A stretch of 34,652 nucleotides of DNA from Candidatus Gastranaerophilales bacterium (GTDB lineage: Bacteria > Cyanobacteriota > Vampirovibrionia > Gastranaerophilales > Gastranaerophilaceae). A program made the translations under genes and the position numbers. This document shows, piece by piece, positions 1,942 through 16,309 of this stretch (its first letter is position 1; each line of letters opens with the position of its first letter). The DNA lies in contig CALURK010000017.1 in NCBI GenBank assembly GCA_944323165.1, positions 1 to 34,652 of the forward strand. Reading direction: 5' to 3'. The notes beneath the pieces were generated by a model. The model was not told the DNA's origin, searched no databases, and worked only from the letters and a program-made list of their open reading frames with translations.

Positions 1942-3494
1942 TTTTTCTTTTTATCGGCAAGCTCGCTATCTAATCTTAAAAATACAGGTTTGATGTTTTC
2001 TTTATCAATCAAATGACCTGCATTTAAGCTTTCGCAAGTAATATCATCAAGTTTAGTATTCAAATCATAAGATAATTGTTCAGCCATAGCTTTTGCAATA
2101 TTAGGACAATACGGGTAAATTAGAGAAGAAATTACAGTCATAACTTGCAATACGTTTGTTAAAACTTCTCCGCACTTATCCATTTGCCCTTCCTTAGCCA
2201 AAGTCCAAGGCGCATTATCAGTTACGTATTTGTTTGTAATATCAACAAGCTCGTTAATTTTCAGTGCAGCTTCTTGAATTTCTATATAATCAAAATGATG
2301 TTTAACAGCCTTAACAGTATCAAGAGCTTGTTCTTTTAAAGAATTTTTACCCAAAAATTCAGGTTTAATATCACCATCAAAGTATTTTACAAGCATAGAT
2401 AAAGTTCTGTTCAAAAGATTTCCCATAGAATTAGCCAAATGAGCGTTAACTTTTTCTTTAAAATCCTCGTCAGAATAATTACCGTCCTTGCCACAAGGTG
2501 CAGCTGAAGCCATATAATATCTGAAAGGATCAGGAATATCCAAATTAAACGCTTCCATAACACTTGTCGGAGAAATTACATTACCGAGAGATTTTGACAT
2601 CTTAGTCTGGTCAATCGTAATCCAGCCGTGAGCCAAGATATGTTCAGGAAGAGGAAGTTCAAGCGCCATAAGTATTGCAATCCAATAAATACTATGGAAT
2701 TTAAGAATATCCTTACCGATTACCTGAACAGTTGCAGGCCAGAATTGTTTAAATTTTTCAGAGGAACCCTCAGGATCGTACCCGAGAGCTGTAATATAAT
2801 TAGATAGAGCGTCTATCCAAACATAAATAACTTGTTCATCATCTCCAAGAACAGGTATACCCCAGTTTACGTTAGTTTTTGCACGAGAAACCGAAATATC
2901 TTCAATATTTTCAAGCTGATTTATTACTTCATTCGCCCTGAAAGACGGAATAATGAAATCTGGATTTGTTTTGATATGTTTAATTATCGCATCTTTGTAT
3001 TTAGTTAATTTAAAGAAGTAATTTTCTTCTTTAACAACTTCAGGTTTTTTCAAGTGGTCAGGACAAAGCCCGTCTTCTGTTAAATCTTTTTCACTCAAGA
3101 AAGCTTCGCAGCCTGAGCAATAAAGCCCTGTATATGCGTGTTTATAAATATCACCTTTATCAACAAGTTTTTTGAAAATCTTTTGTACAACTTTTTCGTG
3201 CTGCTCGTCTGTAGTTCTTATAAATTGAGAATAATCAATATCGAGCGCTTTCCACGCATCTTTAAATTTTTGAGCATTCATATCACAAAATTCTTTAGGC
3301 GAAACACCTTTTTCAGCAGATGTTTTTTGAATTTTAATTCCGTGCTCATCAGTTCCTGTTAAAAAATAGGTGTTATCGCATCTTTGTGTAAAATGTCTGT
3401 AAATAACATCAGTAAGAATTTTTTCATAAGCGTGTCCGATATGCGGAGCTCCGTTTACGTAATCAATTGCAGTTGTGATATAAAATTTTTCCAT
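1938..3494 (-). CDS. metG: Methionyl-tRNA synthetase
   Basis: This cytoplasmic class I enzyme charges tRNA-Met. The catalytic core has HIGH at residues 18-21 and KMSKS at 298-302. A zinc knuckle formed by C126, C129, C144 and H147 lies in the connective domain, and the alpha-helical anticodon-binding domain covers about 370-510. At 518 residues it is the short form without the C-terminal EMAP/tRNA-binding domain seen in E. coli and B. subtilis MetG. The ATG at 3494 has AAGGAA about nine bases upstream. comF lies upstream on the same strand with a 37-bp gap, so the two are probably one transcript. The 3' end overlaps fliR by four bases, stop over stop. Confidence 0.98.
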   Translation of the reverse strand: MEKFYITTAIDYVNGAPHIGHAYEKILTDVIYRHFTQRCDNTYFLTGTDEHGIKIQKTSAEKGVSPKEFCDMNAQKFKDAWKALDIDYSQFIRTTDEQHEKVVQKIFKKLVDKGDIYKHAYTGLYCSGCEAFLSEKDLTEDGLCPDHLKKPEVVKEENYFFKLTKYKDAIIKHIKTNPDFIIPSFRANEVINQLENIEDISVSRAKTNVNWGIPVLGDDEQVIYVWIDALSNYITALGYDPEGSSEKFKQFWPATVQVIGKDILKFHSIYWIAILMALELPLPEHILAHGWITIDQTKMSKSLGNVISPTSVMEAFNLDIPDPFRYYMASAAPCGKDGNYSDEDFKEKVNAHLANSMGNLLNRTLSMLVKYFDGDIKPEFLGKNSLKEQALDTVKAVKHHFDYIEIQEAALKINELVDITNKYVTDNAPWTLAKEGQMDKCGEVLTNVLQVMTVISSLIYPYCPNIAKAMAEQLSYDLNTKLDDITCESLNAGHLIDKENIKPVFLRLDSELADKKKN

Positions 3495-3531
3495 AATCTC
3501 AATTCCTTTTCTTTTTATATCTCAGATTGTA

Positions 3532-4176
3532 TCACAAACACGGGCTTGATGAAGAGAGGCATACAATATCGTTTAAACCTTCAGATTTTAAAGTTTTTAT
3601 CATTTCTTCAAAAGTTGCCCCTGTTGTACAAATATCATCCAATATCAAAATTGATTTACCTAAATCCTTGGATTTATCGACCTCAAAAGCTTCTGATAAA
3701 TTCTCCAAACGCTCCTTTCTGGATAATTTATACTGAGGTTTTGTGTCCTTTACCCTTGTTATTAATTCTGTATTCAAACTGTATCCGCTTAATTTACAAA
3801 ATTCTTCCGCGACAAGTTCCATGTGGTTATATTTTCTCTTTTTAATACGATTTTTGTGCAAAGGAACGGGAACAACCTGAAAATCTCCAGAAATTTCTAA
3901 AGAGTTCCAATATTCGTACATAAATTTAGCAAGATAATACGCCAATTCTTTTTGCTTATGGTATTTTAGTCCTCTAATAAGTTTTTGGAGAGTCTTTTCA
4001 TAAATTCCGCAAGAAAAAATATTCACTCCTTCAATTATTCTTGAAGGGTTAGAAGTTCCAAAACAAAGTTCCTCATAACACTTTGGACACATTTTTAGAG
4101 AATATTTAGAAGAGGAGCAAAAATAACATTTTTTTCTGTAAATCAAGTCCAGAAGGGACAAAAAGAACTTTTTCAT
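3532..4176 (-). CDS. comF: ComF-family phosphoribosyltransferase-like protein
   Basis: The 214-residue product has an N-terminal zinc-ribbon (CYFC and CPKC near residues 17-36) and a C-terminal PRTase fold with the PRPP-binding loop ILILDDICTTGAT near 170-182. ComF proteins are cytoplasmic and needed for DNA uptake in naturally competent bacteria. The homologous GntX role is less clear. I chose ATG 4176, because a longer version begins at TTG 4182 without support. No Shine-Dalgarno is visible. Instead TGATATAAT ends six bases before the ATG, suggesting a leaderless message. It is divergent from the deaminase gene at 4236, so the two promoters nearly touch. Confidence 0.92.
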   Translation of the reverse strand: MKKFFLSLLDLIYRKKCYFCSSSKYSLKMCPKCYEELCFGTSNPSRIIEGVNIFSCGIYEKTLQKLIRGLKYHKQKELAYYLAKFMYEYWNSLEISGDFQVVPVPLHKNRIKKRKYNHMELVAEEFCKLSGYSLNTELITRVKDTKPQYKLSRKERLENLSEAFEVDKSKDLGKSILILDDICTTGATFEEMIKTLKSEGLNDIVCLSSSSPCL

Positions 4177-4235: not shown

Positions 4236-4715
4236 ATGGGTATCAAATCTTGGACAGATTATTTTTTGGATATGGCAAAAACTTGTTCATCACGCTCTAA
4301 TTGCCTGCGCGCACAAGTCGGAGCAGTAATTGTCGGACAAGATAAGAAAATTAAAGCAACAGGATATAACGGAACACCTTCAGGAGTAGAATCTTGTTAT
4401 GAAAGAGGCGAATGCTACAGAATAAAAAACAATATTCCTTCAGGCACTTGTTATGAAACCTGCCGTTCAATTCACGCTGAACAAAATGCGATTATTCAAG
4501 CAGGACAAGACAGATGTATGGGCGCTACAATGTACATTTACGGACATAATTTTATCTGTATTTTATGCAAAAGATTTATTGTTCAATCAGGTATTGTAGA
4601 TGTTTACTTGAAAAAAGACGATAATTCTCCGATACTTCACGTATCCGTTGAGGATATCAAAAGGGAATTAGAAAACCCTGAGAAAATTGAAATAACCCAA
4701 TTAATAAAACAATAG
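4236..4715 (+). CDS. Deoxycytidylate (dCMP) deaminase family protein
   Basis: This is a cytoplasmic zinc deaminase converting dCMP to dUMP for dTTP synthesis (ComEB-like family). The 159-residue product has the zinc site H80-A-E82 with C108-I-L-C111, plus the family's extra cysteine-rich insertion (C54, C60, C72, C76) that can hold a second zinc. The start is ATG 4236, because GGAGG at 4222-4226 is nine bases upstream. The in-frame ATG at 4212 overlaps the -10 box and would add eight spurious residues. coaBC follows seven bases later, so this gene heads a four-gene plus-strand run. Confidence 0.95.
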   Translation: MGIKSWTDYFLDMAKTCSSRSNCLRAQVGAVIVGQDKKIKATGYNGTPSGVESCYERGECYRIKNNIPSGTCYETCRSIHAEQNAIIQAGQDRCMGATMYIYGHNFICILCKRFIVQSGIVDVYLKKDDNSPILHVSVEDIKRELENPEKIEITQLIKQ

Positions 4716-4722
4716 AGGTTTT

Positions 4723-5970
4723 ATGTTAGAAAACAAAAATATCTTAATCGGAATAACCGGCGGAATTGCAGCTTACAAAATTTGTAATCTTATAAGACTT
4801 TACAAAAAATCAGGCGCAAATGTAAGAGTTGTTGTAACTCCAAATGCACTAAATTTCGTTACCAAATTAACCCTCCAAACCCTTTCAGGTAATGAGGTTT
4901 ATGTAGATAATTTTGAAATAGATGAGTATAAGCCTGAACATATAGCGCTAACTGAATCGGATATTTTTGTAATCGCACCGGCAAGTGCTAATACTATAGG
5001 AAAGCTCACAAACGGAATTTGTGATAACCTTCTGCTTTCAACAGCTTGCGCTTTTGCTAGACCGATTTTAATAGTTCCTGCAATGAATGAAAATATGTGG
5101 AACAACAAATTTGTCCAAGAAAACATGACTAAATTAAAAACGGCAGGATATGAAGTTTTAGAACCGGCATCCGGCTTCCTCGCCTGTGGAGTTAACGGTA
5201 TCGGAAGAATGAGAGAAGTTGAAGATATTTTTGAAAAAACCGTTGCAATGTTTTCACAAAAACAAATTCTCAAAGGCAAGAAAATTCTCATAACAGCAGG
5301 CGGAACAAGAGAAAAAATAGACCCTGTAAGGTATATTACCAATTCATCTTCAGGGAAAATGGGAATAGCTCTTGCAGATAATGCCTACAAAATGGGTGCT
5401 GATGTTACGTTGATTTCAACTTTTGGGGTTGAAAAACCTTACAGAAATATAGTTACACCGACAGCCTTAGAGATGGAAAAAGCAGTAAAAGAAAATCTCT
5501 CAGCTAAAGATTGCGTAATAATGTCGGCAGCAGTTTCGGACTATCGTGTCGAAAACGTTTCTGAACAAAAAATCAAAAAACAAGGCGGCGAACTTAACCT
5601 TAAGCTAGTCGAAAATCCTGACATTTTGAAGGAAATTTGCCAAGAAAGAATAAATTTGGCTTCTCATCAAGAAGCTGTTGCCCCCCTTGAGGGGGAAATG
5701 TCCAAAGGACAAAGGGGGGTAAATATTAAACCCTACGTAGTAGTAGGGTTTTGCGCGGAGAGCGAAAACCTCATTGAGAATGCCAAAGCGAAAATTCAGA
5801 AAAAAGGGTGTGATTACCTTATCGCAAACGATATCTCAAGAAAAGATATCGGATTTAACAGCAACGAAAACGAAGTTTACATAATTGACAAATCTCTAAA
5901 TATAAAACATATTGAAAAAGATACTAAAGAAAATATTGCCAAACGTATTTTGGAGGAAATTTTTGAATAA
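4723..5970 (+). CDS. coaBC: Bifunctional CoaBC, with a repeat inserted in frame
   Basis: This enzyme joins cysteine to 4'-phosphopantothenate and decarboxylates the product, two steps of coenzyme A synthesis. The N-terminal CoaC flavoprotein domain (about 1-185) shows GGIAAYK, the catalytic H73, the FMN-binding APASANTIGKL and PAMNENMW (119-126). The CoaB domain (about 187-415) shows TAGGTREKIDPVR, the SSSGKMG loop (208-214), KLVENPDIL and NDIS. Residues about 319-333 are encoded by a GC-rich palindrome (5680-5720) that falls just before the VGFCAES strand. The reading frame stays open, so the protein is probably functional with an extra loop. AGAGG overlaps the upstream stop codon and serves as ribosome binding site. 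Confidence 0.97.
   Translation: MLENKNILIGITGGIAAYKICNLIRLYKKSGANVRVVVTPNALNFVTKLTLQTLSGNEVYVDNFEIDEYKPEHIALTESDIFVIAPASANTIGKLTNGICDNLLLSTACAFARPILIVPAMNENMWNNKFVQENMTKLKTAGYEVLEPASGFLACGVNGIGRMREVEDIFEKTVAMFSQKQILKGKKILITAGGTREKIDPVRYITNSSSGKMGIALADNAYKMGADVTLISTFGVEKPYRNIVTPTALEMEKAVKENLSAKDCVIMSAAVSDYRVENVSEQKIKKQGGELNLKLVENPDILKEICQERINLASHQEAVAPLEGEMSKGQRGVNIKPYVVVGFCAESENLIENAKAKIQKKGCDYLIANDISRKDIGFNSNENEVYIIDKSLNIKHIEKDTKENIAKRILEEIFE
5680..5720 (+). repeat. Palindromic repeat inside coaBC
   Basis: A GC-rich element in AT-rich DNA. CCCCCCTT (5681-5688) pairs with AAGGGGGG (5712-5719), and an inner GTCC-AAA-GGAC hairpin lies between. It encodes A-P-L-E-G-E-M-S-K-G-Q-R-G in frame in coaBC. 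The composition contrast with flanking codons and the symmetry argue for insertion of a mobile REP/MITE-like element. Confidence 0.8.
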
Positions 5971-6628
5971 ATATGAACTTGTCCGTAAAATAGAAGAGTT
6001 TGCGCCGCTCGACACACAAGAAAGCTGGGATTCAAGCGGCTGGGGAGTGGATTTAGAAGGAGAAGAAGTTAATAAAATTCTCTTTGCACTCACTATAACT
6101 GATGATGTTGTAAGACAGGCAAAAGAAAAAAATTGCAATATGATTATTTCTCATCATCCGCTGTTTTTTGTTCCGTTTGAGTATAAGGATATTAATATCT
6201 ATTCTGCCCATACAAATTTAGACAGAGCAGAAGGGGGAACTAGTGATTTAATAATTGAAAAATTAGGTTTTACAAAAACAAGAAATAATGATTTTGTAAG
6301 AATTGTAGAGCTTGAAGAAGAAATTACTGTGGAGGAACTTAAAAACAGGTTAATGGAGATTTCTCCAAAATTAAGGTATGTAAATAATCAAGGCACAAAA
6401 ACCGTAAGGACAATCGGTTTTTGCGCCGGATCAGGTTCAGAATTTATCGGACAAACCGATGCTTTTGTGACAGGAGATGTTAAATTCCACACTGCGCTTG
6501 ATGCTAAGAAAGTTGTTTTTGATATCGGGCATTTTGAGAGTGAAATTTTTGCACCTGAGCTTTTGAAAAAGATTACAAATGTAGGAGATAACGGGGTTAT
6601 TGCGGATGAAAAAAGCCCTTTTATTTAG
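5963..6628 (+). CDS. Nif3-like dinuclear metal-centre protein
   Basis: A Nif3/YbgI/YqfO (DUF34) family protein. These form ring-shaped hexamers with two metals per subunit and are linked to GTP cyclohydrolase-type chemistry, but the reaction remains unsettled. The 221-residue product is the short form without the middle PII-like domain. Visible motifs are SWDSSGWGVD, the metal-binding SHHPLFF, AHTNLDRAEGG, and the C-terminal DIGHFESE supplying His and Glu. I chose TTG 5963: GGAGG at 5952-5956 is six bases upstream and the next residues fit the usual start of the family. The frame is open from TTG 5912, but those residues do not fit. It overlaps coaBC by eight bases and the next gene by 23. 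Confidence 0.93.
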   Translation: MNKYELVRKIEEFAPLDTQESWDSSGWGVDLEGEEVNKILFALTITDDVVRQAKEKNCNMIISHHPLFFVPFEYKDINIYSAHTNLDRAEGGTSDLIIEKLGFTKTRNNDFVRIVELEEEITVEELKNRLMEISPKLRYVNNQGTKTVRTIGFCAGSGSEFIGQTDAFVTGDVKFHTALDAKKVVFDIGHFESEIFAPELLKKITNVGDNGVIADEKSPFI

Positions 6629-7154
6629 TATAATTTTTGGTTTACTGATTTTACCGGCTCTTGCCTACGAAACTATTATAATAAAGTTTCCGGACAAGGA
6701 GCTTTGGCTTAAAGGATATTACAAAAAAGTTGGTAATGAAGCGATTTTACAATACGTACCAAAAGGACAAAGTTCGAATGATTGGCGACGCTCTATTGTA
6801 GTGCATTCTTATAAGCATTCTAACTATCCGATAAATGTTTTTCTTAATAACAGTTCTGCAAGACTTATGAAAATTAATCCTACAGCACCTTATAAAACAC
6901 TTCGCCTTACTCCTAATGACGCAATTATTGGGCGCTGCACTCACAGTTACAAAAACGTTGAGGCTCAATGTGAATTTTTAAGAATTACAAGGGGATATGA
7001 GGGAATTGTTACCATTCATTATATGAACAAAGACAGGGAAGATTTTATGGCGAATTATAATCAGTGGTACAACATAGTTAAGCGTGCCAAGCTATATAAC
7101 AGTTATTATCGAGATGAGAGGATACTTGATAAAGCAGAATATTTTGAGCTTTGA
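6606..7154 (+). CDS. Exported protein of unknown function
   Basis: The 182-residue product starts with a signal peptide (MKKALLF, a hydrophobic core of about 14 residues, then ALA-Y). The mature protein is basic and Tyr/Asn-rich, with only two cysteines (in GRCTHSY and AQCEFL) that could form a disulphide outside the membrane. No further membrane helix is seen and I do not recognise a domain. ATG 6606 lies inside the end of the Nif3 gene (23-base overlap), so translation is probably coupled. The TTG at 6600 is an alternative. It is the last gene of the run before the repeat array. Confidence 0.8.
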   Translation: MKKALLFSIIFGLLILPALAYETIIIKFPDKELWLKGYYKKVGNEAILQYVPKGQSSNDWRRSIVVHSYKHSNYPINVFLNNSSARLMKINPTAPYKTLRLTPNDAIIGRCTHSYKNVEAQCEFLRITRGYEGIVTIHYMNKDREDFMANYNQWYNIVKRAKLYNSYYRDERILDKAEYFEL

Positions 7155-7256
7155 TAATAATTCCCCCGCCTATTATAACAATAGATTTTTTAATATTACC
7201 TCCAAAGTAAATTTCCCCCCGCCCCGTGAGGGAGGGGGGGTAGGGGGTGGGGTAGA

Positions 7257-7285
7257 AAAGATTCCGAAATAAATTCAAAATGACA
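7257..7285 (+). repeat. Interspersed hairpin repeat, copy 2
   Basis: Same 29-base element as at 49-77, but the right arm reads TTCAAAAT, so two of the eight stem pairs are broken. It directly follows a G-rich module. Confidence 0.8.
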
Positions 7286-7333
7286 CAAGATTTCCCCCGC
7301 CCCGTGAGGGAGGGGGGTAGGGGGTGGGGTGGA

Positions 7334-7362
7334 AAAGATTCCGAAACAAGTTCGGAATGACA
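7334..7362 (+). repeat. Interspersed hairpin repeat, copy 3
   Basis: Intact stem ATTCCGAA/TTCGGAAT with loop ACAAG, followed by TGACA. It follows the second G-rich module. Confidence 0.85.
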
Positions 7363-7473
7363 CAAGATTTCCACCGCCTACTATAACAATAGATTTTGTA
7401 GTGTTACCTCCAAACTAAAATACATTTACCCCCCCCCGCCCCGTGAGGGAGGGGGGTAGGGGGTGGGGTAGAT

Positions 7474-7502
7474 AAAGATTCCGAAACAAGTTCGGAATGA
7501 CA
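7474..7502 (+). repeat. Interspersed hairpin repeat, copy 4
   Basis: Identical in stem and loop to the copy at 7334. It follows the third G-rich module, giving the same composite order. Confidence 0.85.
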
Positions 7503-7564
7503 ATATCTCATTCCCTCCCTTTGTAGGGGAGGGGTGGGGTGGGGTTTCTTACAGGACAAAAGTT

Positions 7565-9439
7565 TTAAGCTTCGCTCTCAGCCGGAAGTTGATTCTTTGG
7601 AATATATTCTTCCTCTTCTTCCGGAGGCAAATTAATCGGTAATCTAAAACCGAAAGTAGAACCTTCACCCTCTTTAGAATCAACAAAAACTTGTCCGTGG
7701 TGATGTTTTTCTACCGTAACTTTTACAAGATGAAGCCCAAGTCCAGTGCCTTTAACAGTATGGGTAGCATTTTCGCATCTATAAAATCTGTCAAATACTT
7801 TTTTCTGATCCTTTTCAGAGATTCCCGGACCTTGATCTTCAACGCTTACTTCTATATACTCACCGTCACGTGAGCGCTCTACACGAACTTTAATACGCTT
7901 TCCGTCAGGAGAATATTTGATTGCATTAGACAAAATATTCATAAACGCGCGTGAAATACTTTCGATATTCACGTAAATTTGCGGTAAATCCGGCTCCTTC
8001 ATAATAGATATAGTCAAATCGTGTTCCTTAGCAAGTACTTGAACCTGATTTACGGCATCTTCAATAATCTCGATAATATCAGTTTTCGTCTTTTCCATGT
8101 GAACGTTTTGCGCTTCATAACGGGAGAAATCAAGAATATCATTAACCATTCTGTTAAGTCTAATAATCTCCTGATTCATAACCCCTATAAATTCTCTTTG
8201 AGTATTGAAATCAAAATCATTACCATAGCTGTATAAAGTATCAATATAGCTTCTCAGAACAGTAACCGGCGTTCTGAGCTCATGAGAAACATTAGAAATG
8301 AAGTTAGAACGAAGCTGATCCATCTCAACATCTTTCGTAACATCTATAAGGACAATAATATATCCGACATAAGAATTTGAGCGGGTAAACATCGGAGAAA
8401 TCAAGCATTTAAGAATTCTCGTGTCGATTTGTATATTGAAAGGAACAGGCGCTCCGTCATCATCAAGAGGGGTGTCCTTAAATTGTGTAATTTTATCCGC
8501 AAAACAAAATTCACCGCTAGAATCGCAGAATTGTTGAATTTGAGTGTTAATAATATCTTTTTCTTCCACTTCAAGAAGCTTTTGCGCGTAATTATTAACC
8601 ATAATAACCTTGTCATGGTTATCGCAAACAACAACCCCGTTAACAATACTCATAAGTACAGATTCGAGTTTGTTACGCTCAAAAGTCAAACTCTCAATAG
8701 TCTGTTCATTATAACGGCTAAGTTTTTCTGACATATCGTTGAATGCGCCGTAAAGCTCTTTAACTTCGCTATCCACTTCCTTGTCATCAAGCATATAGCC
8801 AAATTCGCCTGATGAAATCTTTTTAACGCCCTGATAAAGCTTTCTAAGCTCTCTTGTAATTATAGAAGAGTTCATATAAATAATTCCGACAATCACAAGC
8901 CAAGCAAGAATAAACACAAGAGCAATAGAAGCTTTTGAAGTTGCAGAAACTCTATCAATAATACTTCCGCTAAGCCCAACCTCAACAGAACCGACATTTT
9001 GAGAAGAGGCGAGATTCTTTAAAACCATAGGCGAACTAACAGTAATTCTGGCCTTTTCAGCCTGTTCAGGGTAATCATCCTTACTTGAATAAATAATTTT
9101 CGAGTTATTATCCTTAAACACAATAAAAGCAATGTCATCGTTACTGTTAAGTACGGAAACTGAATTGGATCTAAGCGCGTCATATTTAGCCAAATCAGGA
9201 ATAGATTTAGTCACTTCCACCCCTTCGATAGCAAGGGTTTTGGAAAGCACAAGAGCAAAATTTTTATAAGCACTGTTCATATTCTGGGTAATGCTGTAAG
9301 TTGCAAAACCTGCCGCCAAGAGAATAAAAGCCGTACTAACTCCCAAACCTGCAAGAATTAATCTGGTTTGAGCAGTCATTCCCTTTTTTTTAGCCTTCTC
9401 TTTACTCTCCGATTTCTTAAACTCAGCGCTTGTTTCCAT
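7565..9439 (-). CDS. Membrane sensor histidine kinase (WalK/PhoR-like), orphan
   Basis: The 624-residue product has a basic N-terminal tail, membrane helix 1 (about 25-48), an extracytoplasmic sensor region (about 50-168), membrane helix 2 (about 169-189), HAMP, and a PAS domain (about 255-370). The HisKA domain carries SHELRTP with phospho-acceptor H386. The HATPase domain has NILSNAIKYS (N box), DQGPGIS (G1), FDRFYR (F box) and GTGLGLHLV (G2). It ends in an acidic tail. This is the layout of WalK, PhoR and cyanobacterial NblS-type kinases. The signal is unknown and no response regulator is adjacent. I start at ATG 9439; the frame extends 22 codons upstream but passes through the promoter. 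No Shine-Dalgarno is seen. Confidence 0.95.
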   Translation of the reverse strand: METSAEFKKSESKEKAKKKGMTAQTRLILAGLGVSTAFILLAAGFATYSITQNMNSAYKNFALVLSKTLAIEGVEVTKSIPDLAKYDALRSNSVSVLNSNDDIAFIVFKDNNSKIIYSSKDDYPEQAEKARITVSSPMVLKNLASSQNVGSVEVGLSGSIIDRVSATSKASIALVFILAWLVIVGIIYMNSSIITRELRKLYQGVKKISSGEFGYMLDDKEVDSEVKELYGAFNDMSEKLSRYNEQTIESLTFERNKLESVLMSIVNGVVVCDNHDKVIMVNNYAQKLLEVEEKDIINTQIQQFCDSSGEFCFADKITQFKDTPLDDDGAPVPFNIQIDTRILKCLISPMFTRSNSYVGYIIVLIDVTKDVEMDQLRSNFISNVSHELRTPVTVLRSYIDTLYSYGNDFDFNTQREFIGVMNQEIIRLNRMVNDILDFSRYEAQNVHMEKTKTDIIEIIEDAVNQVQVLAKEHDLTISIMKEPDLPQIYVNIESISRAFMNILSNAIKYSPDGKRIKVRVERSRDGEYIEVSVEDQGPGISEKDQKKVFDRFYRCENATHTVKGTGLGLHLVKVTVEKHHHGQVFVDSKEGEGSTFGFRLPINLPPEEEEEYIPKNQLPAESEA

Positions 9440-9445
9440 AGTGAA

Positions 9446-9474
9446 ATTATAGCATGTAAAGTTTTTTGTAGCAA
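9446..9474 (-). promoter_or_regulatory. Kinase promoter TTGCTA-17-TATAAT (predicted leaderless)
   Basis: On the minus strand the -35 TTGCTA (9469-9474) and -10 TATAAT (9446-9451) are 17 bases apart. The -10 box ends six bases before ATG 9439, so transcription should start at the start codon. No ribosome binding site is present. Confidence 0.75.
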
Positions 9475-9537
9475 TAAAGATTGTGTTTTGCTCCGCTAAA
9501 ACCAATCTCCCTCAAACACTATAATATTTTTTTTACG

Positions 9538-9566
9538 TTTACCCCGCCTAATGAATGTGATATATT
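9538..9566 (+). promoter_or_regulatory. ribD promoter TTTACC-17-TATATT (predicted leaderless)
   Basis: The -35 TTTACC (9538-9543) and an extended -10 (TG at 9558-9559, TATATT 9561-9566) are separated by 17 bases. The box ends six bases before ATG 9573 and no Shine-Dalgarno sequence lies between. Confidence 0.72.
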
Positions 9567-9572
9567 TTAGTT

Positions 9573-10589
9573 ATGCCAAATCTTGACGAAAAATATATGA
9601 AAATGTGCTTTGAATTAGCTAAGCGCGGCAAAAACAATGTCACGCCGAACCCTATGGTTGGATGCGTTGTGTTGGATAAAAACGGAAAATTAGTATCAAA
9701 AGGTTACCACAAAAAATATGGTAAAAACCACGCAGAACGTGATGCTTTACTAAAACTTAAAAATAACGAGGCAGAAGGCGGAACTTTGTACGTAAACCTT
9801 GAACCTTGCTCGCATTACGGTAAAACTCCTCCCTGTGTCGACTTAGTTATTAAACACAAACCCAAAAGAGTCGTTATCGGAATGAAGGATGTTAACCCAA
9901 AAGTAGATGGGATTTCTAAGCTCAAGGCAGCCGGAATACAAGTTGATTTCATATTAGAAAAGGAAGCCGAATTTTTAAATCGCAGATTTATTAAAAACAT
10001 GACAATGAAACTTCCATACGTTGTACTCAAAACAGCAACAACAATGGATGGCAAAATATCCACCCAAACCGGCTCTTCCAAGTGGATTACATCAGAAAAA
10101 TCAAGAGAACTTGTATACAAAATGCGAAAAGATTTCGACTGCATTCTAACAAGCTCCAATACAGTAATAGCGGATAATCCCTTAATGAATCAAACCAAAT
10201 GGATATGTGCCTTGGATAAAAATCTTCGAACAGATAAAAATTCAAGAATTTATTCAAATCCCAATACCTACGTCGCTTCAATCCAAAATACACCCCTAAA
10301 GGATGACCGTTTGGATCTAAAAGCCGTTTTACAAGAACTTTTCAACAAAGGTATCTACTCCGTTTTCGTTGAATGTGGAGGAACTCTTGCAGGAGCACTG
10401 CTCAAAGAAGGGCTTATTGACGAAGTCTACCAATTTATTGCGCCAAAAATCCTGAACGACAACAGCGGAATAAGCTGTTTTAATGGGGACAATATCACAG
10501 AAATAAACGATGCAAAAGAACTTAACATCTACGAAGTTAAATACCTAAATCCAGATATTTTAATCAAAGCCAAGCTTAATTCATTTTAA
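9573..10589 (+). CDS. ribD: Bifunctional riboflavin biosynthesis protein RibD
   Basis: RibD deaminates the pyrimidine made from GTP and then reduces the ribose side chain, the second and third steps of riboflavin synthesis. The N-terminal deaminase domain (about 1-145) has the zinc motif HAERDAL and PCSHYGKTPPC. The C-terminal reductase domain (about 146-338) has TTMDGKIST...SSKWITS, ADNPLM and the late FVECGGTLAGALL. At 338 residues it is slightly short for the family (about 360) but both domains look complete. No other rib gene is adjacent. The start codon sits six bases after a TATATT box. The stop overlaps the convergent neighbour by 14 bases. Confidence 0.97.
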   Translation: MPNLDEKYMKMCFELAKRGKNNVTPNPMVGCVVLDKNGKLVSKGYHKKYGKNHAERDALLKLKNNEAEGGTLYVNLEPCSHYGKTPPCVDLVIKHKPKRVVIGMKDVNPKVDGISKLKAAGIQVDFILEKEAEFLNRRFIKNMTMKLPYVVLKTATTMDGKISTQTGSSKWITSEKSRELVYKMRKDFDCILTSSNTVIADNPLMNQTKWICALDKNLRTDKNSRIYSNPNTYVASIQNTPLKDDRLDLKAVLQELFNKGIYSVFVECGGTLAGALLKEGLIDEVYQFIAPKILNDNSGISCFNGDNITEINDAKELNIYEVKYLNPDILIKAKLNSF

Positions 10590-14263: not shown

Positions 14264-14587
14264 CTAGCCTTTTTTGTTCTCATCGTCGTTCTTTTGGTTT
14301 GTCTTGTCTATCAAATGCCCGAGAACCCCGCCAGCAACACCTGTAGTTCCGGCAAAAACACCATAGACAAGAGGAGCAGCTGCACCTCCACTCAAAATTG
14401 TTAGTGCACCGGCACCTAATAAAGCACAAATTCCAAAGCCTTTGGCTGCCCCGTGAGCCTTAAATGAAACTGTATCAGGCTTGGTTTCAGGAACAGGAGC
14501 CTCGGTTACTCTTTGAAGGTTACGACTTTTGTTCATTTTCGAGACAGCACGAGCCGGCTCATAATTTCGGATAGCAGAGATTTTCAT
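14264..14587 (-). CDS. Small glycine-rich membrane protein with MKI...VSFKA N-terminus
   Basis: The 107-residue product has a basic N-terminal third ending in DTVSFKAHG. Two glycine/alanine-rich hydrophobic segments follow (about 49-68 and 70-90, GICALLGAGALTILSGGAAAP and VYGVFAGTTGVAGGVLG), and it ends in a charged tail. It has no cleavable signal peptide of standard form. The segments resemble glycine-zipper membrane pairs. I do not recognise the family. The start ATG 14587 has GAGGG seven bases upstream, and a good promoter and terminator flank it, so it is a single-gene unit. Confidence 0.82.
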   Translation of the reverse strand: MKISAIRNYEPARAVSKMNKSRNLQRVTEAPVPETKPDTVSFKAHGAAKGFGICALLGAGALTILSGGAAAPLVYGVFAGTTGVAGGVLGHLIDKTNQKNDDENKKG

Positions 14588-14737: not shown

Positions 14738-16309
14738 ATGAATTATAACTACAATGAAGATTATCAATATGACAGCTGCGTATCGGAAGGAATTTGTTCC
14801 GTTAATCCGAGAACTTCTTCCTTGCAAGAAGTGTTAATTTTATACCTTAAACTTGCAGCTTTTTACGCTCTTAAACTTTACGAAAACGGCATTCAAAATC
14901 AGGAAATTAGAAATCATATTTTAAACACTATCTCTATACTTGTTTCAAACTTCGAATTCTCAGAGAGAGATTTTAAAGTAATCACGCTCAATTTTAACAA
15001 AATTTTGCCATCTCTAATAAAAAAATATGAAGAAAATTGCAAAGATAGTAATGCTGTACCTGAATGCTTAAAATCTATTCTCAAATTTAAACAAAATACG
15101 GATATTATAAAATCAATTCAGTTTGGCGAAAAAGAGTTTTTAAAAAAAGCAAAGTCTTTATCTGATGAAGTTCGGGATTTATACAAAATTCTTTTAGTAC
15201 TTGCAAAAAGTATATGTATTAACATTCTCGACTTGGAGAGTTTTGGAATTGAAGATTCTGTCGGATACGTTTCAATATTAAAACTGCTCAATTCATTAAA
15301 TACAGACAGTCAAGATGTTGATATTCTTAAAAGTACTATAGAAGAAATTTCCGATGTAGATAATAAACTTATGAAAGCTCTTCAGACGGCTAAAGAAGAA
15401 AGATACGGAAGTCAAGAAATATGCGAAGTTTCTTATTCCACAACTCCCGGAAAAGCAGTTTTGGTTGTCGGTTCAAACATTAGAGAATTAGAAGATATTT
15501 TAGAAGCTTTTAAAGACAAGAATATCGATGTTTATACACACGACGATATGATTCTTGCCAATACTTTTCCGAAGTTTCACGAATACAAAAACTTGAAAGG
15601 ACAATACGGACAAGGAATAGAAAATTGTTTACTCGATTTTGCAACTTTTCCGGGGCCTATAATTCTTACAAGACACTCGCTTTATAATGTTAAACATTTA
15701 TATAGAGGGTTATTATACACAACAGATTTTGCTACATCTAAAGGAGTTATACCAATTGCTAATCAAGATTTTTCGCAAGTTATAACTGCTGCGGAGAATG
15801 CAAAAGGTTTCAAGACGGGAAGACAATGTGAAACTATTAGTATCGGGTACGATTACAATAAACTTATTAAAGAAGTAAAAAATCGTGCTGAAAAATATTC
15901 TAAAATTTTCATAATCGGATTGGGAGCTTACACACTGGAACAAAAAGCTTATTTTGAAAAGCTGCTTAGCAAAACTCCAGACAATGTTTTAATAATCTCA
16001 CTCTCATACTGCGTAAACAGGGATAATATAATATGTCTAAACGCATGTTTTGATACATTTGCACTGCCAAGAATTACAGAAGGACTTGCCGAAGCTTTAT
16101 CGCTACCTATTTCGGTATTTTTCCCTAAATGCGACAGACATACTCTCTCTCAAATAATCTACCTAAACCAAAAGCCTAATATTAATATTTACATGGGAAA
16201 ATGCACGCCAATTATGCTTAACCCGAATATGATGATTACATTAAAAAAATTATTTAATATTCACGGCTTAACTTCTGTCAAAAAGGACTTAAATGAAATT
16301 ATGAATTGA
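14738..16309 (+). CDS. Degenerate hybrid-cluster-protein (Hcp)-like protein
   Basis: The 523-residue product follows the Hcp/prismane family (hydroxylamine/NO-reductase fold) along its length. The matches include SCVSEGICSVNP (N-terminal cluster region), GKAVLVVGSNIRELEDILE, VYTHDDM, FATFPGPIILT, CFDTFALPRI and IYMGKCTPIMLNPN. Several metal ligands are changed. The first two N-terminal cysteines are gone, leaving C14 and C20. In the hybrid-cluster site the expected His, Cys and persulphide-Cys are S225, S314 and G396, while the acidic ligands appear as D270 and D466. C425 and C437 seem retained. It may have lost the cluster or bind a reduced one. There is no clear Shine-Dalgarno; TATACT lies four bases before ATG 14738. 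The 3' end overlaps murG by 11 bases. Confidence 0.85.
   Translation: MNYNYNEDYQYDSCVSEGICSVNPRTSSLQEVLILYLKLAAFYALKLYENGIQNQEIRNHILNTISILVSNFEFSERDFKVITLNFNKILPSLIKKYEENCKDSNAVPECLKSILKFKQNTDIIKSIQFGEKEFLKKAKSLSDEVRDLYKILLVLAKSICINILDLESFGIEDSVGYVSILKLLNSLNTDSQDVDILKSTIEEISDVDNKLMKALQTAKEERYGSQEICEVSYSTTPGKAVLVVGSNIRELEDILEAFKDKNIDVYTHDDMILANTFPKFHEYKNLKGQYGQGIENCLLDFATFPGPIILTRHSLYNVKHLYRGLLYTTDFATSKGVIPIANQDFSQVITAAENAKGFKTGRQCETISIGYDYNKLIKEVKNRAEKYSKIFIIGLGAYTLEQKAYFEKLLSKTPDNVLIISLSYCVNRDNIICLNACFDTFALPRITEGLAEALSLPISVFFPKCDRHTLSQIIYLNQKPNINIYMGKCTPIMLNPNMMITLKKLFNIHGLTSVKKDLNEIMN

Follow-up and report, generated by a model that had tools for sequence, protein, structure and literature searches.

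The protein encoded at positions 14738-16309 (+) of the 34,652-nucleotide stretch of Candidatus Gastranaerophilales DNA analyzed here (contig CALURK010000017.1, hereafter the window) belongs to a vertically retained, clade-specific group of hybrid cluster protein (Hcp) paralogs that is under purifying selection, has the Hcp fold and conserves no set of hybrid-cluster ligands. Because cluster ligands have been lost, new conserved cysteines have appeared and a glutaredoxin gene frequently adjoins the gene, it seems that an old enzyme scaffold has been turned to another redox task.

An intact reading frame with the fold of hybrid cluster proteins

The 523-amino acid reading frame is intact, and its product is the sole Hcp homolog found in the source genome (99.8% complete). 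It matches the Prismane/CODH superfamily model (Pfam accession PF03063) with an E-value of 2.4e-27 and 96.2 bits, above the Pfam gathering score of 27. The hydroxylamine reductase model TIGR01703 is matched over residues 11-521 at 215.8 bits, below its curated cut-off of 360.8, and the PRK05290 score of 212.3 bits similarly falls below a cut-off of 367. Most of the close relatives that appear in named records bear the title Candidatus Gastranaerophilales.

AlphaFold2 predicts a full-length Hcp fold for the protein (mean pLDDT 88.7, pTM 0.89), with residues 1-11 disordered and residues 11-20 weakly modeled (block mean pLDDT 60). Five solved Hcps match the protein over its full length. Foldseek gave an E-value of 4.1e-27 for the model, and the Hcp structure 1e1d aligns over 499 residues (Z 30.9, 3.6 Å); CO dehydrogenases score far lower than the solved Hcps (Z about 15-17). 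The model of a clade relative with 23% identity to the window protein retains the same fold (pLDDT 88.2, Z 29.3). Profile matches, solved structures and predicted fold thus bear out an earlier note on this DNA, which had described the protein as an Hcp homolog along its length. The protein combines this full-length fold with the absence of the seven-residue hybrid ligand set and of the complete N-terminal cysteine set. Since it lacks these ligand sets and scores below both curated cut-offs, it should not be filed as a hydroxylamine reductase.

Loss of metal ligands

Ligand columns were set by the Hcps of E. coli and D. vulgaris together with 33 canonical Hcps found in the order to which the window belongs, and ligand positions are given in D. 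vulgaris numbering. His244, Glu268 and Cys459 are identified as ligands of a single Fe in PMC9311411. The window protein keeps three of the 11 ligands (Cys14, Cys20 and Cys437), has Asp for Glu at two more and has lost six; one of the seven hybrid-cluster ligands is identical. At the N-terminal [4Fe-4S] site, the first two of four cysteines are gone, in agreement with the earlier note, and the CxxC motif is absent. The remaining Cys14 and Cys20 (codons within 14777-14797, +) represent the canonical third and fourth cysteines and are Cys in 74/76 and 73/76 members, respectively, of the first set of clade sequences.

The histidine ligand of the hybrid cluster (His244 in D. vulgaris, and His in 34/34 canonical Hcps) is replaced by Ser246 (15473-15475, +). 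The earlier note had mistakenly placed this loss at Ser225. The true ligand sits in a GHD motif and Ser225 in a YGH motif, which reads YGN in D. vulgaris and is variable in canonical Hcps; Ser225 thus does not occupy the ligand position. Asp270 (15545-15547, +) occupies the Glu268 position, where Glu, Asp, Asn and other residues are found across the clade. Ser314 (15677-15679, +) occupies the Cys312 position and is Ser in 41/41 sequences of the genus set, while Gly396 (15923-15925, +) occupies the position of the persulfide Cys406, which varies within the clade. Tyr424, followed by Cys425 (16007-16012, +), aligns with the Cys434 ligand. Cys437 (16046-16048, +), retained at the Cys459 position, is Cys in 35/41 genus members and in about a quarter of the clade. 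Asp466, preceded by Cys465 (16130-16135, +), falls at the Glu494 position. The assignments of Ser314, Gly396 and the two aspartates to a cysteine, the persulfide cysteine and the two glutamates had been made in the earlier note and stand; apart from Ser225, its account of the lost metal ligands is right in substance, though it overlooked the replacement of Cys434. We also considered whether seven hybrid ligands might be found elsewhere in the protein and rejected this idea, since the alignment has no room for a set of this kind and none is conserved in the clade.

A single clade under purifying selection

Hcp homologs in the order form two main score groups, with canonical members mostly above 600 bits and divergent members mostly at 110-240 bits. 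A canonical Hcp scores above the cut-off in 45 of 117 genomes. Of 148 sequences placed on a tree, 130 are divergent and group as one clade (SH-aLRT 100); this clade is confined to one Gastranaerophilales family and is separate from the canonical Hcps that these genomes encode. The window protein falls within this clade and carries Cys14, Cys20, Cys465 and Cys489. An alignment of 152 divergent sequences shows conservation at none of the hybrid-ligand columns, as compared with full conservation in canonical Hcps (n=34), and the stretch bearing the Cys434 and Cys459 positions has been deleted in some lineages.

Ligand loss alone would fit a decaying pseudogene or a disruption specific to one genome. 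This explanation is refuted, and we give it practically no credence, because a relative of the window protein is present in 64 of the 65 genomes of its genus with no stop codon inside and dN/dS is low. Among pairs for which dS could be estimated, several of them with unsaturated dS, most close pairs have a dN/dS of 0.03-0.09, and none exceeds 0.15. The comparison of orthologs that the earlier note had proposed thus yields a single clade whose members share these losses and evolve under strong purifying selection. This rules out both a pseudogene and a disruption confined to this locus and accords with that note's reading of the intact frame.

Given that none of the seven hybrid ligands is conserved across the clade, a hybrid cluster is very unlikely in these proteins. 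The single clade, the purifying selection, the lack of a conserved ligand column and the fold kept in a distant relative together make this loss a clade-wide property, and we regard it as nearly certain that the hybrid cluster has been lost throughout the clade.

Other Hcp-like genes of the order exhibit losses of their own. Separate, partly degraded paralogs that have lost different ligands occur in two sister families, f7 (L113, L114 and L117) and f6 (L115 and L116). Like the divergent clade, these intermediate paralogs come from the same order and show partial ligand loss, and they join the tree below the clade; they differ in the ligands that they keep (L117, for example, retains all four N-terminal cysteines and the equivalents of Cys312 and Cys406) and in lacking the Cys465/Cys489 pair. 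One genome contains tandem Hcp-like duplicates (L072, positions 417-2090 and 2057-3685), and another contains a triplicate (L203, positions 4611-6224, 6209-7864 and 7860-9482) in which copies 1 and 2 lack a cysteine at position 14 and/or 20.

A conserved set of four cysteines

Three cysteines that are absent from canonical Hcps are near-invariant in the clade: Cys465 (95% of members), Cys489 (93%; codon at 16202-16204, +) and a fifth clade-conserved cysteine, Cys101 (90%; 15038-15040, +). Canonical Hcps have Tyr or Phe at position 465 and Thr or Ser at position 489, so that Cys489 takes the Thr/Ser place in the GPT loop. We counted cysteines over three short stretches (the N-terminus, residues 463-467 and residues 486-492) in 151 sequences and found exactly four in 134 of them, arranged as 2+1+1 in 111 and as 1+1+2 in 23.

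Two lineages account for the origin of the 1+1+2 arrangement. In one, g20, g25 and g35 have Phe or Leu in place of Cys20 and possess Cys490; in the other, g16 has Leu in place of Cys20 and possesses Cys488. One g16 member retains Cys20 as well as Cys488, which places the gain before the loss. The number of cysteines thus stays constant while their place moves, which is the pattern expected of a four-thiolate site. Cys465 and Cys489 have been lost together in several lineages, and Cys465 has never been lost alone. Both are gone in the sampled g26 and g53 genomes and in one g22 genome, and Trp489 is found in six genomes of the window's genus, three of which also lack Cys465. These six genomes (L034-L039) form a subclade with Cys, Ser or Ala at position 465, and one pair within it has a dN/dS of 0.145, above that seen elsewhere. 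Tree-aware sign tests of cysteine co-variation (loss of Cys20 with the extra cysteine, 465 with 489, and 425 with 433) gave a consistent direction, but the independent events (2 to 5) were too few for significance.

Very probably, Cys14, Cys20, Cys465 and Cys489 act as one functional set. The earlier note had suggested a structural or regulatory derivative or a protein that binds a different cluster; the pattern that the four cysteines form favors a different metal or redox site, and we consider the chances that the set binds an Fe-S cluster to be evenly balanced.

Work on the class III Hcp of M. marburgensis offers an indirect view of where these residues may lie. Replacement of Cys67, a ligand of the N-terminal cluster, with Tyr leaves the [4Fe-4S] domain disordered, and the loops bearing Glu434 and Trp461 shift by about 5.3-5.8 Å, which the authors read as filling the place of the [4Fe-4S] domain (PMC10502027). 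Glu434 aligns with Asp466, adjacent to Cys465, and Trp461 would fall about four residues past Cys489 by residue counting. This correspondence suggests that the loops packed against the former N-terminal cluster domain contain Cys465 and Cys489 or have them close by.

A second group of cysteines (364, 425, 433 and 437) is located by alignment within the former hybrid-cluster pocket in the window's genus, with codons at window positions 15827-15829 (Cys364) and 16010-16048 (Cys425, Cys433 and Cys437). Cys425 and Cys433 co-occur, with both present in 27 of 41 genus members and discordance in 2 of 41. Cys437 has been lost in one subclade, most members of which have gained Cys424. The old pocket may therefore house a second cysteine site specific to this genus.

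Glutaredoxin genes adjoin the Hcp-like gene in many genera

A glutaredoxin gene lies directly upstream of the Hcp-like gene on the same strand at 47 of 151 loci, spread over 16 genera, and in almost every case no more than 24 bases separate the two frames. Linked glutaredoxins are of two types: type A, which is Grx2/GST N-domain-like (23 loci in 12 genera), and type B, which is Grx3-like (24 loci in 4 genera). One genome has a linked type A gene and a type B gene elsewhere, which establishes that A and B are different genes. Glutaredoxin was found beside none of 33 canonical Hcp loci. That two different glutaredoxin types occupy the same place points to a functional link rather than chance gene order. 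Five linked glutaredoxins have CPYS for CPYC, and a second active-site cysteine is thus not always needed. An apparent natural fusion of glutaredoxin and Hcp (L031, 657 amino acids) was discarded, since its extra N-terminal part lacks a CxxC glutaredoxin motif and looks like mere open frame.

In the window and its genus no glutaredoxin gene lies upstream; the genus has an unlinked type A gene elsewhere in the genome, which in the source genome is on another contig, and the source genome also encodes a glutathione synthetase domain. The window gene stands alone between a small divergent gene on one side and convergent murG on the other, and scans for promoters and terminators yielded no excess over shuffled sequence. 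The absence of a neighboring redox partner, to which the earlier note had drawn attention, is accordingly a feature of the window and not of the family.

Several additional features of the genomic context were observed. The small divergent gene (window positions 14267-14587, -) encodes a glycine-rich protein of 107 amino acids that has a VSFKA motif and no Pfam match, and the closest relatives preserve its place beside the Hcp-like gene. Some members of the genus (L049, positions 7603-9612, and L050-L059) carry, after the Hcp-like gene and on its strand, a CpaE-like gene (response regulator plus ParA-type ATPase), a gene for a 273-amino acid protein with no Pfam match, or both. The SufB/SufD core domain was not found in the source genome at its 99.8% completeness (G000), while all 14 control genomes matched, which implies another route of Fe-S assembly.

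Proposed function and alternative explanations

The reading that we prefer, to which we assign an even chance, is that the protein is a non-catalytic derivative of Hcp, that ligands from domain 3 have served to rebuild its N-terminal metal site, and that it works with glutaredoxin. Cys14 and Cys20 from the old N-terminal site would meet the new Cys465 and Cys489 from domain 3 at or beside the former place of the N-terminal [4Fe-4S] cluster, with the domain 3 pair standing in for the two lost N-terminal cysteines. The four thiolates would bind a cluster there and so tie domain 1 to domain 3. The protein would have given up NO and hydroxylamine reduction. It could instead be an Fe-S protein that responds to redox state or to NO, or it could transfer electrons through its thiols; glutaredoxin may serve it as a reductant or cluster donor, or may itself be reduced by it.

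The glutaredoxin linkage is open to a different interpretation, in which the protein is metal-free and its cysteines form reversible disulfides or mixed disulfides with glutathione that the partner glutaredoxin reduces, making it a redox switch or a thiol oxidoreductase. Upstream genes of two types in 16 genera, the five CPYS glutaredoxins, which would suit a monothiol mechanism, and the glutathione synthetase domain of the source genome are all consistent with such a protein. However, half of the set consists of old Fe-S ligands that remain in their original motif, and sequences in which a cysteine has moved still have four, as a metal site requires; we consider a purely thiol-based protein unlikely, if a serious contender. 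The sequence itself suits an Fe-S, a zinc or a disulfide site alike. A four-thiolate set conserved in number could also bind zinc that merely stabilizes the N-terminus, with function residing elsewhere, for instance in the emptied cluster pocket, where Ser246, Ser314 and Asp466 are often kept. As a purely structural zinc leaves the glutaredoxin linkage unexplained, we view this arrangement as improbable.

The old pocket might instead still hold a hybrid-like or other cluster with changed ligands. The window protein has aspartates at both Glu ligand positions and keeps Cys437. The Cys364, Cys425, Cys433 and Cys437 residues common in its genus, with the co-occurrence of 425 and 433, could supply further ligands. 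Against this, none of the seven hybrid positions is conserved over the clade, and E. coli Hcp mutants, including Glu492 to Asp, are reported to show that this glutamate matters for function (PMC10502027). A cluster in the old pocket is thus quite improbable in our estimation. 

Returning to the rebuilt N-terminal site, its fullest form would be an Hcp dismantled into a redox protein, in which the hybrid cluster has been lost, the N-terminal Fe-S site has been rebuilt with half of its ligands drawn from another domain and glutaredoxin has become a dedicated partner. Across an entire family of gut bacteria, the majority of them without a true Hcp, the Hcp scaffold would then normally take this form. 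We advance this complete scenario tentatively, as something short of probable.

Comparison with known systems and implications

Class I/II Hcps (TIGR01703/PF03063; D. vulgaris 1e2u and E. coli 7de4) share with the window protein the full-length fold (Z about 31), the domain order, two of the four N-terminal cysteines and core motifs such as YTH. The window protein differs in lacking the hybrid ligand set and the CxxC motif and in having the new Cys465 and Cys489, and the gene neighbor of its clade in many genera is glutaredoxin rather than Hcr. Class III Hcp (M. marburgensis 7e0l) shares the C-terminal Hcp domain fold (Z 28.5 over 391 residues). It is shorter by about 100 residues in the middle, and its ligands are all intact, whereas the window protein has class I/II length and has lost ligands. 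CooS-V (CODH-V, 7b7q; Z 17) provides another example of a superfamily member that departed from the parent activity after ligand changes, but it keeps a 4Fe cluster in its pocket, where the pocket ligands of the Hcp-like clade are gone throughout.

Within the open-access literature on Hcp and hydroxylamine reductase, we found no paper on a Gastranaerophilales/Melainabacteria Hcp-like group, and the titles and abstracts listed for Hcp with glutaredoxin describe no link between the two. Clade proteins are at risk of annotation as hydroxylamine reductases; many gut genomes would then be assigned an enzyme of nitrosative-stress defense that they probably do not have. The clade also provides a natural sequence of steps in which ligands are lost and regained, useful for understanding how the Fe-S sites of a fold change place. 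It further suggests glutaredoxin as a partner of an Hcp-type scaffold.
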